DNA of 64,000 nt from Ruminococcus sp. YE282 (GTDB taxonomy: Bacteria > Bacillota > Clostridia > Oscillospirales > Acutalibacteraceae): assembly GCA_900101355.1 (NCBI GenBank), contig FMUV01000001.1, positions 124,001 through 188,000 on the forward strand. The letters are read 5' to 3'. Shown piece by piece: positions 21,943 through 64,000 of the stretch; the first letter of the stretch is position 1, and each line of letters begins with the position of its first letter. The notes under the pieces are model-generated. The model saw only the letters and a list, made by a program, of their open reading frames with translations. It was not told the DNA's origin and ran no database searches. The position numbers were made by a program, and so were the translations under genes.

Positions 21943-22055
21943 GCGGGAATTGCACAATCAATTACATCTACTCATACAACGATTAAATTGTAAAAGCAGA
22001 TAGTTAGTCTTTTTTATAATGTAGATAATGTAGAAGGATGATTGTGTTTAGCCGC
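21943..22055 (-). ncRNA. Y-RNA-like structured RNA, unit 9
   Basis: Minus-strand GCGG, CTAA, ACACAATC, ATCCTTCT at the 5' side and GATTGTGC, AATT, CCCGC at the 3' side: the same frame as the eight units around 59.3-62.5 kb. Seven of eight inner stem positions pair. The interior is about 70 nt, AT-rich, with no complete tRNA visible. It lies next to the minus-strand tRNAs, upstream of tRNA-Glu. The rest of the 21910-22270 gap holds a weak GTGGG/CCCAC hairpin at about 22137 and nothing else I can name. Confidence 0.75.
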
Positions 22056-45158: not shown

Positions 45159-45301
45159 CCATTAAGAGTGCGTAAGGGAACAAGCCCAATGACCGTACAC
45201 CAACCTACCGAGTGGCAAGGTGGTAATGCTTGTCTGTATCGCTACAATGATATAGAACCAATGGGAATCTTTTACACCTCTAATGAGATAAATTAGAGAG
45301 G
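45159..45301 (+). promoter_or_regulatory. SAM-I (S-box)-like riboswitch
   Basis: Closing stem CCATT/AATGG (45159 and 45260). Inside, AAGAG, a GTGCG/CGTAC stem, GGGA and GCCC with ATGA (kink-turn), CAACC and AAGGTGGTAAT occur in the order and spacing of the S-box core. Downstream, CCTCTAAT can pair with ATTAGAGAGG, hiding the ribosome site, so control is probably translational. It precedes the gene at 45312. Confidence 0.6.
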
Positions 45302-53171: not shown

Positions 53172-53825
53172 ATGAAATTTCTTAACAGAATTTTAAAAAA
53201 AGAGGTATATAATATGAAATTTAATGTAATCAACAATTCGTCCAACGTCAATGTTGAGGTTAAAGATAATTTGGACGGTTCTGTTGCAATTATCGTAGAT
53301 GTTAAGCCAAATGGCAAACCGCTTTCAGAGTATAAGCCTGGTGAAACCGCAACTATTGGCGAACGTGAATACATCGTCCTCGGTCACGCAAACGAAACAA
53401 CTGCGCTTGTTACAAAGGATATTGCGAAAACAATGGAGTTTGGTACTTCCGGCGACTATCGCAAGAGTTATGTGCGTGATTATTGCAACGGCGAATTTTA
53501 TAGGGGACTTGTAAAAGCTGTGGGAGCAGACAATATCATTCCCCATACGGTCAATCTTATGTGTGATGATGGTTCAAATAAGGGCATTGTATGTAAGGAT
53601 AATGTATCAATTCTTACTATGGCTAATTATCGCCGCTATCGTGAGCAGCTTCCCGCGATTGGCAAGACGTTCTGGACAGCAACAGACGTAACTGTTCTCG
53701 ATAAGGATTACGCTCGCAGCGTTTGCTGCGTCCGTTCCAGCGGTGTTCCGAGCTGGTGTGGCTGTGGCTGGACTTGCGGTGTGCGCCCGTTTTGTATCTT
53801 GAAATCTTCTGTCTTGGTATCTTGA
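53172..53825 (+). CDS. DGR target protein, C-type-lectin-like
   Basis: 217 residues from 53172, or about 203 from ATG 53214 (AAGAGGT site). The C-terminal part (FWTATDVTV...GVPSWCGCGWTCGVRPFCIL) is the CLec fold of diversity-generating-retroelement variable proteins. The variable repeat encodes residues about 181-207. It is not joined to a tail gene, so its binding target is unknown. The variable codons now encode five cysteines in a short stretch, unusual. Confidence 0.85.
   Translation: MKFLNRILKKEVYNMKFNVINNSSNVNVEVKDNLDGSVAIIVDVKPNGKPLSEYKPGETATIGEREYIVLGHANETTALVTKDIAKTMEFGTSGDYRKSYVRDYCNGEFYRGLVKAVGADNIIPHTVNLMCDDGSNKGIVCKDNVSILTMANYRRYREQLPAIGKTFWTATDVTVLDKDYARSVCCVRSSGVPSWCGCGWTCGVRPFCILKSSVLVS
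53712..53792 (+). repeat. DGR variable repeat (VR)
   Basis: 81 nt aligned without gaps to the template repeat at 54232. Ten differences, all at template adenines (eight to G, one to C, one to T); four of the 14 template adenines are unchanged; no other base differs. Confidence 0.95.
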
Positions 53826-54428: not shown

Positions 54429-55850
54429 ATGGATGATTTTCAAACACTTACTGATTTTGGGAATCTCTATAATTCTTACCTTGTTTCGTTAAAAGGCAAA
54501 GGTAAGATAAAGAGTGCGGCGAGATTTAATATTATGGCACTCGAAAACCTTTATGTAATGAAGCAACGTCTTTTAAACCATACATATCGAATTTCGCCGT
54601 ATTCAGAGTTTGTAGTTAAAGAACCAAAAGAAAGAATTATAAAATCTGGTTCATTTCGCGATAAGGTATTACAACATTGTTTATGCGATTATGTGTTGAT
54701 ACCAAAACTTAATAATGAATTTATACTTGATAATTATGCCGGACAGATTGGCAAAGGTACTTTGTTTGGTTTGGATAGATTATCGAAGCATCTATTAGAT
54801 TTCTATTCCGAACGCGGTTGTAATGGTTATATTTTAAAATGTGATATAACTAAATTCTTTTATTCAATTAACCATAATGTAATGAAGAAATTGATTAAAG
54901 AATTATTTACTGATGAGGATATTCAATGGATTTGTAATTCATTTATTGACAGTGTGGATGGTGATGGTCTACCTCTCGGAAATCAAAGTAGTCAAGTTTT
55001 CGCACTTATATATCTTAACGGTCTTGACCATTACATAACCAAGGAATTAGGTTGCAAGTATTATGGTCGATATATGGACGATTTTTATTTACTTTCTGAT
55101 GATAGAGAATATCTCAAAGAATGTTTGGCTAAAATTAAAAAATATTTGGCTAATCTCAAATTAACATTGAATAACAAAACCGAGATTGTTTCAATGAGTA
55201 AGGGAATACGATTTCTCGGATTTCATACATATCTTACCGAGGAGGGCAAGATTATCCGCAAACTTAACAGTGATAACAAAAGACATATTAAAAAGCGTTT
55301 GAGAAAATATGCAAAGTTAGTTTTTGATGGCAGAATGGAGAGAAAACGCTTTAATGAGATATATCAATCGTGGCGAAATCACGCTTCTCACGGTAATTGT
55401 TTTAAACTGATTTATGAAATGGATTTATTTATGGATGAATTAATGAATGAGCAGAAAACAGAATTAAGAATAATTATTGCCGGAAGTAGAGATTTCAATG
55501 ATTACGAATTTCTAAAGAAACAACTGTCTAAATTTATCAAAGACCACCAGAATAGGAGATTTACTATTGTTAGTGGTGCAGCCCGTGGAGCAGACCAACT
55601 CGGAGAGAAATACGCAAGAGAGAAATGTATTCAATTAAAGCGTTTTCCTGCGGACTGGAATAACCTTGGACGGAGTGCAGGATATATTCGCAATACTCAA
55701 ATGCTGGATTATATCAAGCAAAATGATTGTGAGGGATATGTATTGGCATTTTGGGATGGTCAGAGCAAGGGAACACGGCATATGATTAAAACCGCCAAAA
55801 AAGCGGGAGTGACCGTTGAAATAAAATTTTTCAAAAAAAAATTAATGTAA
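54429..55850 (+). CDS. DGR reverse transcriptase fused to SLOG/DUF2493
   Basis: 473 residues. Residues 1-335 are an RT: ILKCDITKFFYSI (motif A), GLPLGNQSSQVFALIYLN (motif B; DGR RTs often have an altered [LIV]GxxxSQ) and YYGRYMDDFYLL (YMDD catalytic loop). Residues about 345-465 (RIIIAGSRDFNDYEFL, TIVSGAARGADQLGEKYA, AFWDGQSKGTRHMI) are a DUF2493/SLOG Rossmann-like domain that binds nucleotide ligands. No strong ribosome site; the start lies at the end of the TR RNA. Confidence 0.85.
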   Translation: MDDFQTLTDFGNLYNSYLVSLKGKGKIKSAARFNIMALENLYVMKQRLLNHTYRISPYSEFVVKEPKERIIKSGSFRDKVLQHCLCDYVLIPKLNNEFILDNYAGQIGKGTLFGLDRLSKHLLDFYSERGCNGYILKCDITKFFYSINHNVMKKLIKELFTDEDIQWICNSFIDSVDGDGLPLGNQSSQVFALIYLNGLDHYITKELGCKYYGRYMDDFYLLSDDREYLKECLAKIKKYLANLKLTLNNKTEIVSMSKGIRFLGFHTYLTEEGKIIRKLNSDNKRHIKKRLRKYAKLVFDGRMERKRFNEIYQSWRNHASHGNCFKLIYEMDLFMDELMNEQKTELRIIIAGSRDFNDYEFLKKQLSKFIKDHQNRRFTIVSGAARGADQLGEKYAREKCIQLKRFPADWNNLGRSAGYIRNTQMLDYIKQNDCEGYVLAFWDGQSKGTRHMIKTAKKAGVTVEIKFFKKKLM

Positions 55851-59302: not shown

Positions 59303-59375
59303 ACGGCTATTTGTAATCTTCCTTCTATCATTGGACTGTAAATCCGATACCACTCATAGATTGCAAAATTCCCGT
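59303..59375 (+). ncRNA. Y-RNA-like unit 1
   Basis: Outer stem ACGG/CCGT, inner stem TTTGTAATC/GATTGCAAA (one G-U), TTCCTTCT after the 5' arm. The interior contains a tRNA-Tyr-like anticodon arm (GGACTGTAAATCC). Confidence 0.8.
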
Positions 59376-59385
59376 TACCTTTTTA

Positions 59386-59470
59386 GCGGCTATGTAGAAA
59401 CTTCCTTCTTCCGTCTCACATACAGAGGTGGATTTCGACCATATGAAATTATAGTTTTTGCAATTCCCGC
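59386..59470 (+). ncRNA. Y-RNA-like unit 2
   Basis: GCGG/CCGC outer stem, TGTAGAAAC/GTTTTTGCA inner stem with two wobbles, TTCCTTCT. The interior has a GGTGGATTTCGACC hairpin resembling a T arm. It ends 31 nt before the TerD-like protein start. Confidence 0.8.
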
Positions 59471-59501
59471 GAAATTAAAAAACAAAAAAGGAGAAAAAGA
59501 A

Positions 59502-61736
59502 ATGAATGTATTAAATGAAATTTTGTTGAGAAGAAAAAATCAGCTCATTCTCGAAAATGTAAACCCGGATTATGGACAGACCGACAGTGAAAAGGCAATG
59601 GTCGGCGCAATCCTCAAAAATGTTCAGTCACTTGGATTTACGTTTGCCCGCGATGTGCTTGAAATTCTGTTTCACTATAACCGCGCGGAGTTAGAGTCAT
59701 TCTATCGTGACCTCATTCCCGAGTTGAAGAAACTTGTCGGCGCAGACGTTCAGTACAATCCTATGTACCCGAACTTCCCGCAGCAGGTAATGGAAGCAAG
59801 CGATGCGGAACTGTTCATTAACGCCATTATTCATTATTGGTCGTTTGGAACGCTTCTCCCGCAGTACGAGAAGCAGGAAAGACTGCCTTTAATTGATGAC
59901 AATAAAATGACGGTTTTATCGACAGGAAATTGCAAGAACGTAGGCGAAATCTTGCAAAATTTGCTTAAATCTCCTACAAATCTGTCTGAAAATGACAGAA
60001 ATGACATAGCAACTTGCATAAAAAATATGCCAAATTATGCAGAATTTTTGCCGGACGAGATTCCGCTCAAAGAAAACGTTGCTTTCTTGGGAAAACTCAT
60101 TATTGAGCAAACTCCGATTAAAACCAGCCGAAATATCGAAAAATATTTCAAAACTGCGACAGATGTTCTTCGTTTGGTCACTGCATTGTCTGACGGCGAC
60201 ATCAGCCTTGCGACAAAGACTCAGTACAGAAACCTTCGTCGAGCAGAACGCAGGATTATAATGAACTTACTTGCAAATTGCGGAAATATCTTGGAGGATT
60301 TGTACTGCTATAAGTATGAGTGGTTGTACATTGGCAAAATGCTCCACGTTGGCGAGTATTGGTATATGAAGAAGTACAACAACGTCAGAGGTGCTTTCTA
60401 TACCTTCCGCAACGAGAAGAAGCCTATGTTTATGGCTGGCAAGGTTCAGGCAGCTATTCTCAAAAACGATATGCTTGAGGCGGCAAATATGCTGAAATCA
60501 AGACCCGGCGATTTTGCAAGACAGCTTGACAAGTTGCTCAGAGATAGCGATGAAAAGCACATTGCATATATCACGGCTGCGTTTGCGGAAGTCGCGGAGA
60601 AAGTTTCAACTCCTGTTCTGTTGCAGGTCAGAGAACACTTTATCGAGCGCAAGGGCGAGAAAATGCCTATAAGAGTGTTCTTCCCGAAGGGCAATGTTGC
60701 AAAAGCTATGGTTATCCCGAATGACCTGCCGGCAATTTCTGTCACCGCTTGTCAGCAAATTGTTGATACTTGCAACAAGGCTTTGGTCGCGCAGTTCAAG
60801 ACGAAAGAGCCTATGGGTAAGGTTTATATCAATCCCGATTTCAAGAACTATCTCGTGCCGTTCAGCCAGAGAAGCGCAAGTTCCGCGAATAAAATCGTTG
60901 TGCGCGGAAGTAAGTTGCCCATCAATCCAAAGGCAAAAGCTGTTCGCGGATTTATTTGGTGGACAAATATGGGTAGCAATGATATGTACGATGGCAGAGT
61001 TGACATTGACCTTTCAGCGGCAATCTATGATGAGAATTGGAACTACGTTGAACACGTTTCCTATACTAATCTCCGCTCTAAGAAGTACAACGCTTGTCAT
61101 TCCGGCGACATCACGAACGGCGGGTCTGTAAACGGCGACGGCGTGGCTGAGTTCCTTGATGTGGATATTGATTCCGTTGCAAGAAATGCAGGAAGATATA
61201 TCGTCTATCAGGTTTACAGTTTCACAAGGCAGAAGTTCTCTGAAATGCCCAACTGCCGATTCGGTTGGATGGAGCGTGAGGACGTTGATAGTGGTGAAAT
61301 CTTTGAACCAAAGACGGTTGAGATGAAGATTGACCTCACTTCCGAGAGTGACGTTGCAATTCCCGTTATCTTCGACTGCGTGGAGCGCAAATTCATTTGG
61401 TGTGATATGAACCTCCGCATTGCACAGACGAGATTGGGCGGCAATAACCTTGAAAGCAATCTCAAAGGTACAACTGCTACTTGCTATGCGCTCACTCATT
61501 TCAACAAGCCCAATCTGTATGAGTTGGTTTACCTCAATGCTTTTGCAAGAGGTGAGATAACCACCGACAGAAACGCGGCGGATATTATCTTCGACAATGA
61601 TAAGACGATTCCTTATGAGGTTGTCGAAACCGTTGACGAGGTTACGGGATTACCTTCTCGCACACTCCGCGACAAAACGGAAGTTCCGATTATAGACAGC
61701 TATAACTTCGATTTTCTTGTCGGAGAGCTGTTATAA
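59502..61736 (+). CDS. Helical (Ro60/TROVE-like?) plus TerD-domain protein
   Basis: 744 residues from the ATG eight bases after GGAG. Residues 1-450 are helix pairs as in HEAT-type rings. Residues about 500-720 are a TerD domain: VDIDLSAAIYDENWNYVEHVSYTNLRS, CHSGDITNGG, GDGVAEFLDVDIDSV, then GWMEREDVDSGEIFEP. TerD domains bind calcium. I recognise the C-terminal half as that of bacterial TerD proteins with long helical N-termini. Flanking by eight Y-RNA-like units suggests that the helical part is an RNA-binding, Ro60-like ring. No vWA domain follows, unlike classical Ro60. GC-rich biased codons suggest strong expression. Confidence 0.65.
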   Translation: MNVLNEILLRRKNQLILENVNPDYGQTDSEKAMVGAILKNVQSLGFTFARDVLEILFHYNRAELESFYRDLIPELKKLVGADVQYNPMYPNFPQQVMEASDAELFINAIIHYWSFGTLLPQYEKQERLPLIDDNKMTVLSTGNCKNVGEILQNLLKSPTNLSENDRNDIATCIKNMPNYAEFLPDEIPLKENVAFLGKLIIEQTPIKTSRNIEKYFKTATDVLRLVTALSDGDISLATKTQYRNLRRAERRIIMNLLANCGNILEDLYCYKYEWLYIGKMLHVGEYWYMKKYNNVRGAFYTFRNEKKPMFMAGKVQAAILKNDMLEAANMLKSRPGDFARQLDKLLRDSDEKHIAYITAAFAEVAEKVSTPVLLQVREHFIERKGEKMPIRVFFPKGNVAKAMVIPNDLPAISVTACQQIVDTCNKALVAQFKTKEPMGKVYINPDFKNYLVPFSQRSASSANKIVVRGSKLPINPKAKAVRGFIWWTNMGSNDMYDGRVDIDLSAAIYDENWNYVEHVSYTNLRSKKYNACHSGDITNGGSVNGDGVAEFLDVDIDSVARNAGRYIVYQVYSFTRQKFSEMPNCRFGWMEREDVDSGEIFEPKTVEMKIDLTSESDVAIPVIFDCVERKFIWCDMNLRIAQTRLGGNNLESNLKGTTATCYALTHFNKPNLYELVYLNAFARGEITTDRNAADIIFDNDKTIPYEVVETVDEVTGLPSRTLRDKTEVPIIDSYNFDFLVGELL

Positions 61737-61745
61737 TACAATTTG

Positions 61746-61829
61746 GCGGCTAAGAGATTCCATCCTTCTAATGATAGGTTCAACTCCTGTTGTAAGTGTG
61801 GTTTACAATGTAGGAAACTCAATTTCCGC
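61746..61829 (+). ncRNA. Y-RNA-like unit 3
   Basis: GCGG/CCGC, inner stem GAGATTCC/GGAAACTC (one mismatch), ATCCTTCT. The interior has a T arm (ATAGG-TTCAACT-CCTGT) followed by TGTAAGT, which pairs with GTTTACA: a T arm and acceptor stem closed by a short loop, i.e. a permuted mini-tRNA. Confidence 0.85.
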
Positions 61830-61845
61830 AATTACACTCATTTTT

Positions 61846-61940
61846 GCGGCTAAGTGCAATCATCCTTCTATTTTTACATAATGAAGAAAATAATGCTAAC
61901 CGTCGTGGTTAGCCCCAAAATTTGATTGCACAATTCCCGC
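61846..61940 (+). ncRNA. Y-RNA-like unit 4
   Basis: GCGG/CCGC, inner stem GTGCAATC/GATTGCAC perfect, ATCCTTCT. Interior hairpin GCTAACC/GGTTAGC. Confidence 0.85.
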
Positions 61941-61957
61941 GCTTTAATTCACATCCT

Positions 61958-62044
61958 GCGGCTAAATCATAACATCCTTCTAAAAAAAGAACTTGCGCTT
62001 TAGGCGCGACTAAATACATAAGATTTTGTTACGATAATTTCCGC
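61958..62044 (+). ncRNA. Y-RNA-like unit 5
   Basis: GCGG/CCGC, inner stem ATCATAAC/GTTACGAT (one wobble), ATCCTTCT. Interior hairpin TTGCGC/GCGCGA. Confidence 0.85.
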
Positions 62045-62075
62045 AAAAAAATTAATGTAAATAGCAAAAAACATA

Positions 62076-62104
62076 TTGACAGAAATATCATTCTATGATA
62101 TAAT
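62076..62104 (+). promoter_or_regulatory. Promoter of Y-RNA-like units 6-8
   Basis: TTGACA, 17 nt, TATAAT; junction motif directly upstream; unit 6 begins 27 nt after the -10 box. Confidence 0.85.
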
Positions 62105-62130
62105 CTTAAATGTAAGTTAAACAAACTATT

Positions 62131-62206
62131 GTGGCTAACAAAATTCATCCTTCTACCCGTATGGGAACAAAATTGGTAGTTTGTCTATTGAATTTTGAAT
62201 TTCCAC
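62131..62206 (+). ncRNA. Y-RNA-like unit 6
   Basis: Outer stem GTGG/CCAC, a compensatory change against GCGG/CCGC. Inner stem CAAAATTC/GAATTTTG perfect. Interior CCCGTATGGG hairpin and a D-arm-like ACAAAATTGGTAGTTTGT. Confidence 0.85.
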
Positions 62207-62221
62207 TTTTACATAGTTTAA

Positions 62222-62353
62222 TCGGCTAAGAAACATCATCCTTCTAAAAAGTGTTAATCTGTTTGTCGTGGGTTCGAGTCCCACCACGCTACGAATGTAG
62301 GGTGTAGCTCAGTTGGTAGAGCAACAGCGAAAAGTCGATGTTTCAATTTCCGA
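62222..62353 (+). ncRNA. Y-RNA-like unit 7 with permuted tRNA
   Basis: Outer stem TCGG/CCGA (compensatory), inner stem GAAACATC/GATGTTTC perfect. Inside, a tRNA 3' half (TGTTAATCTGT, GTGGGTTCGAGTCCCAC, CACGCTA) comes first and the 5' half (TAGGGTG, TAGCTCAGTTGGTAGAGC, ACAG) second. Acceptor strands pair at six of seven positions, ACAG pairs with CTGT, and the Y stem replaces the anticodon loop. Asn-like (GTT). Confidence 0.85.
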
Positions 62354-62370
62354 ACAATAATTGAATTTGG

Positions 62371-62497
62371 GCGGCTAACGAGTATCATCCTTCTTACAGC
62401 TCCAAACTGCAATCGCGGGTTCGATTCCCGCTCATCCAACCTTTGGGTGGTGGTCAAGTGGTAAGACAGCAGTTATGTACGATATTCAAATTCCCGC
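62371..62497 (+). ncRNA. Y-RNA-like unit 8 with permuted tRNA
   Basis: GCGG/CCGC; inner stem CGAGTATC/GATATTCA (seven of eight). A 3' half (ACTGC, GCGGGTTCGATTCCCGC, TCATCCA) precedes a 5' half (TGGGTGG, GGTCAAGTGGTAAGAC, GCAGT). The acceptor (7 bp with two wobbles) and anticodon stem (5 bp) both pair. Gln-like body. Confidence 0.85.
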
Positions 62498-63180: not shown

Positions 63181-64000
63181 TTGAGTACAGATAAGAAATA
63201 CTATAAAATTTCACAATATACAATGAAATGCCGACTTTATCCGAATAAAACGGTTGCTAAAGGTTTTGATAAGGCAATTCAAGCTATTCATTGTTATCAT
63301 AATTGCCTTTTATACGATATTTTTAATGGAAACATTGAATCTACTGCAAAGCCATATAAGCCAAAAAAGGAATCAAAGCCTGAGAAAAAGAAAAATGAAA
63401 GCGATTTTGATTATCGGCAACGTCTTTACTCTTATGAACAAAAGCAAAAGTACAAAGAGGGCGATATAATTCATTTCCCGAATTTGAATTACGCATTTTC
63501 CGCAGAGTATAAGAACAAGTTAATCGAAGAACATCCCGTAATCGCTAATGCTCCGGCTTCTGCAATCACAGCAAAGATTGGTCTTATGTCCGATGTTAAG
63601 AAATCGCTCGGCAAACTTCCAATCGAATTTCAGAAACCAAAGTATTATAGCAAGAAAAAGCCAAGACAGAGTTTTTCTTATCAAGATGTATTAGGTAAAT
63701 TAGTTGAAACCGATAATAAAAATGTATTGTTTATTAAACTGCCAGAGAAATTTGGCGGCACACGCTCAAATCCTGCAAAGTGTAAAATTCGCGGTTGGAA
63801 TAAAAAAATTCGTTTTGATAGATACGGGGAAATAAATTTTATAGATTATTTCAAATCCAATCCAAACAAAAGGATTACTATTAAAATCGAAAAGGATAAT
63901 TGTGGTGATTATTGGATTGTTTTTTCACTGACCAATGTTTATAAGTCAATGGCAAATCCACAAAATACATTTGGTGGTATTGATGTTGGAATAAAAGATA
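63181..64000 (+). CDS. TnpB/Cas12-like RuvC nuclease, partial
   Basis: 273 residues from a TTG nine bases after AAGGAG to the window end. The N-terminal part (KISQYTMKCRLYPNKTVAKGFDKAIQAIHCYHNCLLYDIF) is TnpB-like, followed by a long Lys-rich insertion. The last residues, FGGIDVGIKD, are the RuvC-I motif with the catalytic Asp. The RuvC-II/III and zinc parts must lie beyond the window. Whether it is a transposon TnpB, a phage-domesticated nuclease or a Cas12 relative cannot be told here. Confidence 0.75.
   Translation, partial: MSTDKKYYKISQYTMKCRLYPNKTVAKGFDKAIQAIHCYHNCLLYDIFNGNIESTAKPYKPKKESKPEKKKNESDFDYRQRLYSYEQKQKYKEGDIIHFPNLNYAFSAEYKNKLIEEHPVIANAPASAITAKIGLMSDVKKSLGKLPIEFQKPKYYSKKKPRQSFSYQDVLGKLVETDNKNVLFIKLPEKFGGTRSNPAKCKIRGWNKKIRFDRYGEINFIDYFKSNPNKRITIKIEKDNCGDYWIVFSLTNVYKSMANPQNTFGGIDVGIKD

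Follow-up and report, generated by a model that had tools for sequence, protein, structure and literature searches.

What are the repeated, stem-forming units that flank a single gene in the genome assembly of Ruminococcus sp. YE282, and what do they have to do with the protein encoded there? The locus lies in a window of 64,000 nucleotides (nt; contig FMUV01000001.1, positions 124,001 to 188,000, forward strand; coordinates without a locus name are window positions), in which eight units surround a gene of 744 codons (59502..61736, + strand, ATG at 59502), two on its 5' side and six on its 3' side. The initial annotation had interpreted this arrangement as a phage system of multiple Y RNAs with a TerD-domain protein. 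We found that the units belong to a conserved RNA family with covarying stems, that this RNA occurs together with the gene in different phyla and in phages, and that some copies carry a transfer RNA (tRNA) core; with the protein, which has a predicted ring and a TerD domain, the RNAs probably form a stable particle that would work like Ro60-Y RNA.

Nine units with covarying stems

All eight annotated units were confirmed in position, on the + strand, with the layout NNGG-CTA(A)-inner arm-(A/T)TCCTTCT-interior-inner arm-AATTYCC-NN. Scores are given in bits for R1, an RNA model of the unit family. Upstream of the gene are the short units 1 (59303..59375, 49.2 bits) and 2 (59386..59470, 44.4 bits), the latter ending 31 nt 5' of the start codon. 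Downstream are the short units 3 (61746..61829, 46.5 bits), 5 (61958..62044, 44.0 bits) and 6 (62131..62206, 47.0 bits), and unit 4 (61846..61940, 49.1 bits), which lacks the tRNA core and has an extra hairpin in its loop. Units 7 (62222..62353, 42.2 bits) and 8 (62371..62497, 16 bits) are long, and combine the stems with a permuted tRNA core, made up in unit 7 of a T arm, a closed acceptor-like hairpin and a D arm; the low score of unit 8 belongs to a match that ends 3' at 62431 and misses the true 3' arm. A ninth unit of 113 nt (21943..22055, - strand, 38.4 bits), in which no tRNA core was seen, is located directly 5' of a tRNA-Glu in a tRNA cluster, approximately 37 kb from the other eight.

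When folded alone, each of the nine units formed the outer and the inner stem, with z-scores of -5.12 to -1.06 against shuffled sequences (weakest for unit 3, -1.06, and unit 6, -1.53). The stems and the compensatory outer pairs (GCGG/CCGC, GTGG/CCAC, TCGG/CCGA, ACGG/CCGT) were as first described. The interiors had been described as tRNA mimics: this stands for units 7 and 8, which are YrlA-like, and was not upheld for the other units of the window, where no tRNA-like interior was found.

Relatives of the locus were fetched by protein similarity: viral loci in two overlapping sets of 5 and 18, five of the 11 matching phage records (two of the other six duplicate phages already in the set), and, of 86 genome loci, the 80 that matched best. 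In the 80 genome loci (-1000 to +1500 around the gene), (A/T)TCCTTCT occurred 127 times on the sense strand versus 12 times on the antisense strand; at least one sense copy was present in 74 loci, and an antisense copy in 10. For a pairing-blind sample, sites were collected in 96 loci by the 5' motif alone, NNGGC(T/C)(A/G)-N8-10-(A/T)TCCTTCT (n=193); 14 sites without a 3' motif in range were left out, and 179 sites from 83 loci, a few of them near-identical, were kept. The inner stem paired at 7-8 of 8 positions in 153 of these 179 sites, versus a mean of 4.3% (maximum 9.7%) when inner arms were exchanged between loci (200 swaps). Both variable outer pairs formed in 93% of the sites, versus 20% when swapped. 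Pair types in the stems include G-U, and the (A/T)TCCTTCT beside the inner stem is nearly invariant. In a close phage relative (L002, 96% protein identity), the inner stems of units 2 and 7 are quite different and still pair. The annotation's claim of a conserved RNA was borne out by strong covariation of both stems in relatives, close phages included.

A parser based on pairing returned 226 candidate units, some clearly spurious, in 95 of 104 loci; filtering and removal of five duplicate or broken loci (L018, L021, L029, L081, L102) left 167 units in 82 loci. An alignment (A4) of six window units and 76 of the 89 units of ≤68 nt, selected for distinct 5' inner arms, had 95.6% of its cells paired and a covariation score of 0.918, versus 0.193 shuffled and ≤0.160 slid. 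The swap test is the fairer of the two measures, because pairing was part of the selection of the A4 units. The stem itself had no Rfam match, either in the window or in the eight genome loci that were searched.

The protein and the association of RNA and gene

The protein contains a predicted Ro60-like helical ring (best match at residues 146-461), with Ro60 entries as the top matches to the ring part, and a TerD domain at approximately residues 476-660, identified by fold; the TerD domain that had been proposed is supported, and the ring-like helical region is a prediction. Ro60 was absent among the 50 best Foldseek matches listed for either predicted model, and Deinococcus Rsr was not among the matches listed for the ring-only model. 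The protein is homologous to NF041916 (MXAN_6230/SCO0854 family) in three stretches; its score of 387.6 bits (E 1.2e-115) falls short of the curated cut-off, 600 bits. Pfam detected no RING finger in the phage protein; a RING was present at residues 114-159 of the one full NF041916 member tested (L154), and the scan of ten family members without RING returned no Pfam domain. The Pfam search of the phage protein gave a single match, M11L at E 0.13, which did not reach the cut-off of that family, and no vWA or RNA-binding domain was found in this protein or in nine relatives. TROVE (PF05731) was likewise absent, from the phage protein by Pfam and from the nine relatives at E≤0.1. A search of solved structures by sequence, using the family profile A3, gave nothing under E 0.2. 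The family is large, with 3648 relatives at E≤0.001 among 7997 scored candidates.

At E≤0.1, R1 matched 93 of 98 loci, with 205 hits, all 205 on the strand of the gene. The 98 loci comprised the 80 genome loci (77 positive) and 18 of 28 phage or viral loci (16 positive); the ten omitted were identical or near-identical contigs. Of the five misses (L008, L011, L073, L091, L114), L073 and L091 have nearly no sequence 5' of the gene. These counts include weak hits of ≤27 bits and hits with E-values of 0.01-0.1, at L028, L020 and L010 (the sole hit at L010 has E 0.087). The RNA is not specific to phages and is found in many bacterial genomes too. Units are placed upstream, downstream or on both sides of the gene, mostly within a few hundred bases, with 1-5 R1 hits per genome locus and up to nine units in phage relatives; the eight copies that had been called unusual are at the high end. 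Judging by record titles, with the higher groups partly assumed, the gene ranges over Bacillota, Actinomycetota, Bacteroidota, Planctomycetota, Chloroflexota, Cyanobacteria, Gammaproteobacteria, Acidobacteria, Verrucomicrobia and several candidate phyla. One Heimdallarchaeota bin is among the loci, with a gene match broken by stops; single odd placements may be binning errors, because many loci come from metagenome-assembled genomes.

Further loci were tested, because many of the 98 had supplied training units. Twenty of 23 NF041916 matches of 200-232 bits (L184-L203) were analysed, and a unit was detected in 18 of the 20 by motif and in 19 by R1; they come from genomes of the family to which the Streptomyces carrying L112 belongs, and R1 contains the L112 unit. 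At NF041916 genes over the cut-off (L154-L183, Streptomyces-family genomes), R1 at E≤1 matched 30 of 30 loci (31 hits, weakest E 0.13), with the RNAs 48-225 nt upstream on the sense strand. An apparent absence of units at these loci, obtained with a GGCTA regular expression, was rejected as an artefact: most read GGCTCC or GGCTCA. The absence that the same expression indicated at TROVE loci was upheld by R1.

Among the 167 filtered units, 136 are shorter than 95 nt and 31 are longer. The T-loop pattern GTTCRA(G/A/T) is present in 23 of the long units versus 4 of the 136 short ones. An alignment (A7) was made of 23 of the 31 long units, chosen by eye for T and D arms; it omits the L028 unit, which has the T-loop pattern, and includes the L103 unit, which has a variant loop. 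Its common core consists of a T arm, a seven-pair stem with a short loop that closes the position of the acceptor end, and a D arm. Double changes were found in 21 of 27 consensus pairs, 12 of 15 inside the core; some of this covariation may go back to distinct parental tRNAs. A five-pair stem, at what we take to be tRNA positions 27-31/39-43, formed at least four of its five pairs in 23 of 23 units, versus 176 of 506 swapped combinations. These arms, the closed acceptor stem and the 27-31/39-43-like stem make the long RNA a circularly permuted tRNA, in which the acceptor end is closed and a putative binding stem replaces the anticodon loop; it therefore cannot decode.

The Rfam YrlA model (RF02553, gathering score 69 bits) scored unit 7 at 44.3 bits (E 7e-8) and unit 8 at 19.2 bits (E 1.2), so that the comparison with Rfam Y RNA models did not place them in that family. 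The model recognised the core in each of the five genome loci with long units that were scanned, always below cut-off. This cut-off decides little, because the YrlA-like RNAs present at five of six tested TROVE loci also stay below it (33-61 bits). As a separate observation, the facing halves of two adjacent long units in L067 (4505-4784) score as one tRNA gene (36.8 bits, cut-off 29), and window positions 62300-62438 come close to doing so (28.1 bits); annotation pipelines may call false tRNAs at such places.

Proposed function, alternatives and phage context

We infer that the outer and inner stems with UUCCUUCU would serve as the docking site on the ring protein, and that the variable interior of the short units and the tRNA-like core of the long units would be exchangeable effector modules. 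By analogy with RYPER, these modules might gate the ring or tether a partner, either PNPase or a tRNA enzyme. The ring would capture damaged or misfolded RNA, the TerD domain would take the place of the vWA domain of Ro60, and the particle of the phage would likely guard or repair its own tRNA set, and the transfer-messenger RNA (tmRNA), during infection.

Could the units instead act in cis, as leader and trailer elements of the TerD-ring mRNA to which the protein binds for autoregulation, and never exist as separate RNAs? Their closeness to the gene, including a unit that ends just before the start codon, would fit, but we consider this unlikely: the units may be on either side or both, in one to nine copies, unit 9 is far away in the tRNA cluster, and a tRNA core has no obvious role in a leader. 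In addition, units 6-8 are preceded by a separate, perfect sigma-70-type site (62076..62104, + strand; TTGACA-17-TATAAT with TG before the second hexamer, 12/12 matches), which is a consensus match only, in a region with 9 sites of all grades versus 6.5 expected. That the RNAs are decoys soaking up tRNA-cutting defence nucleases, merely stabilised by the protein, has a small but appreciable probability. The long units mimic tRNA, several phage copies stand among phage tRNAs, and competitive inhibition of nucleases is offered as one possible role of YrlA in an excerpt of PMC7790460; against this, most units have no tRNA core, as the size and T-loop counts above show, and the RNA occurs commonly in genomes of bacteria. 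It is very improbable that the units are DNA elements, for example mobile repeats or hairpins used in recombination. Their arrangement as inverted repeats in tandem, with stems that vary, would suit this, but the strand is fixed relative to one gene at every R1 hit, G-U pairs and a tRNA core occur, and, among the matches listed under stricter filters, no unit was present in 58 other genomes near the host, only in its own.

If the system were an ordinary Ro60 that has diverged strongly, with Y RNAs of the usual kind, both missed by Pfam and Rfam, this would explain why Ro60 entries best match the ring part and why the tRNA core has the YrlA order; the probability of this reading is nonetheless low. 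Profiles of the whole protein (A3) and of the ring (A6) were compared by hhalign with A5, a profile of 23 TROVE proteins, and the probability was under 1%; the profile link to TROVE (70 versus 23 sequences) was rejected. TerD stands where Ro60 has vWA. R1 matched none of 36 TROVE loci (flanks of approximately 0.5-1 kb) and, when this control was repeated with longer stretches because those flanks were shorter than at the positive loci, none of 20 TROVE stretches spanning 7.5 kb like L184-L203 (one of 6 kb). A TROVE gene was also present in 6 of 28 genomes with the system (28 among those of the 80 loci), and at five of these six TROVE loci a separate YrlA-like RNA was present. The identification as a Ro60/Y RNA system, taken strictly, thus failed by Pfam, by profile and by RNA model.

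The preferred reading, a Ro60-like particle of ring-TerD protein and RNA, has a broader form to which we give about even chances: a second widespread bacterial surveillance particle of the Ro type, consisting of a TerD-ring and plug-in RNAs, in which the UUCCUUCU stem would dock, each interior would name a different partner or substrate, the Streptomyces-type RING would link RNA surveillance to protein tagging, and phages would have expanded the set to eight or nine. A family with thousands of relatives, for which the searches made found no role, thereby acquires an RNA as constant partner, and an RNA that matches no Rfam family acquires a protein. What Ro60-Y RNA is for in bacteria is a long-standing puzzle with only a partial answer; in a parallel system, where natural variants of the RNA are numerous, the idea that the stem docks and the interior specifies becomes directly testable. 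The system could also account for the role of some TerD domains under RNA stress and in conflicts with phages.

Genes for a portal protein and for the large terminase are present in the window, and the same 744-residue gene is found at 100% identity in an IMG/VR contig; it is therefore phage DNA inside the assembly of the host (2.5 Mb, 81 contigs). The protein family was matched in 3 of 148 host-related genomes, including this one; the other two matches had E-values of 2e-35 and 5.8e-4. The ring-protein gene adjoins the phage tRNA set, and a phage tmRNA (56973-57372) with the tag DTTVVTLHPALLAVLGQRAVA lies among phage tRNAs.

RtcB was encoded near the ring gene in 3 of 95 loci: 8 nt upstream in L044, 128 nt upstream in L063 and approximately 3 kb downstream in Rhodococcus phage Weasels2; an RtcB in L050, suggested by neighbour clustering, was not confirmed. 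Clustering of the neighbours of the 95 loci revealed no gene common to most, and the largest clusters (8-10 loci) look by eye like common unrelated families. A related upstream gene was present within 2.3 kb of the ring gene in six of the 95 loci (L052, L071, L079, L089, L101, L111); the L052 copy appears by eye to be ankyrin-repeat-like. In Xanthomonas phage XacN1 and Rhodobacter phage RcXuper (L009, L011), the ring gene has annotated nucleotidyltransferase genes nearby.

Elsewhere in the window, a reverse transcriptase fused to a YspA/SLOG-type domain (PF00078, PF10686) is encoded at 54429-55850, with a small open reading frame upstream (53172-53825, weak DUF6273 match); this locus may be a diversity-generating or defence element. 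An S-adenosylmethionine (SAM) riboswitch lies in the phage DNA at 45159-45264 (45.3 bits, barely over the Rfam cut-off of 44.4). Past the tRNAs, an open frame that runs off the window end (63181-64000) looked TnpB- or transposase-like by eye, a reading that was dropped since Pfam did not match the partial frame.

Relation to known systems

By the tests run, the system is a variant of the Ro60-Y RNA kind that stands outside TROVE and RF02553. The available excerpts of PMC7790460, PMC8394870 and PMC4726728 describe bacterial Ro particles in which a basal stem binds the ring and a tRNA-like domain binds PNPase, steering the decay of structured RNA, and report that rsr and Y RNA genes can sit in rtcBA repair operons. 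In excerpt, a jumbo-phage survey lists ROT/TROVE proteins and stand-alone TerD proteins in phages, not joined (PMC7824862), and a Vibrio jumbo phage protein is described as structurally like Ro60-related proteins (PMC7765460). Within the parts of the open-access literature covered, which excludes subscription journals, no paper was found that ties an RNA partner to TerD or SCO0854/MXAN_6230 proteins.

Among TerD/tellurite-resistance proteins, the present one has TerD as one domain of a ring protein that is encoded with an RNA. NF041916 is homologous, and its Streptomyces-family members over the cut-off carry the RNA upstream; the phage protein is under the cut-off and without RING by Pfam, and the family name does not mention RNA. 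With tRNA and tmRNA, the long units share the arms of their core, but here these are permuted, the acceptor is closed and a putative binding stem replaces the anticodon loop. The closest likeness is to Ro60/Rsr-YrlA and RYPER (Deinococcus, Salmonella, mycobacteria): a predicted helical ring, an RNA encoded beside the gene, a basal stem with, in the long units, the tRNA-like T arm, closed acceptor hairpin and D arm, and some RtcB neighbours. Unlike Ro60/Rsr, the phage protein has no TROVE by sequence and has TerD in place of vWA. Unlike YrlA, the RNA has a nearly invariant UUCCUUCU at its basal stem, is present in several copies, most of them without a tRNA core, and is encoded beside a TerD-ring gene rather than beside Ro60.

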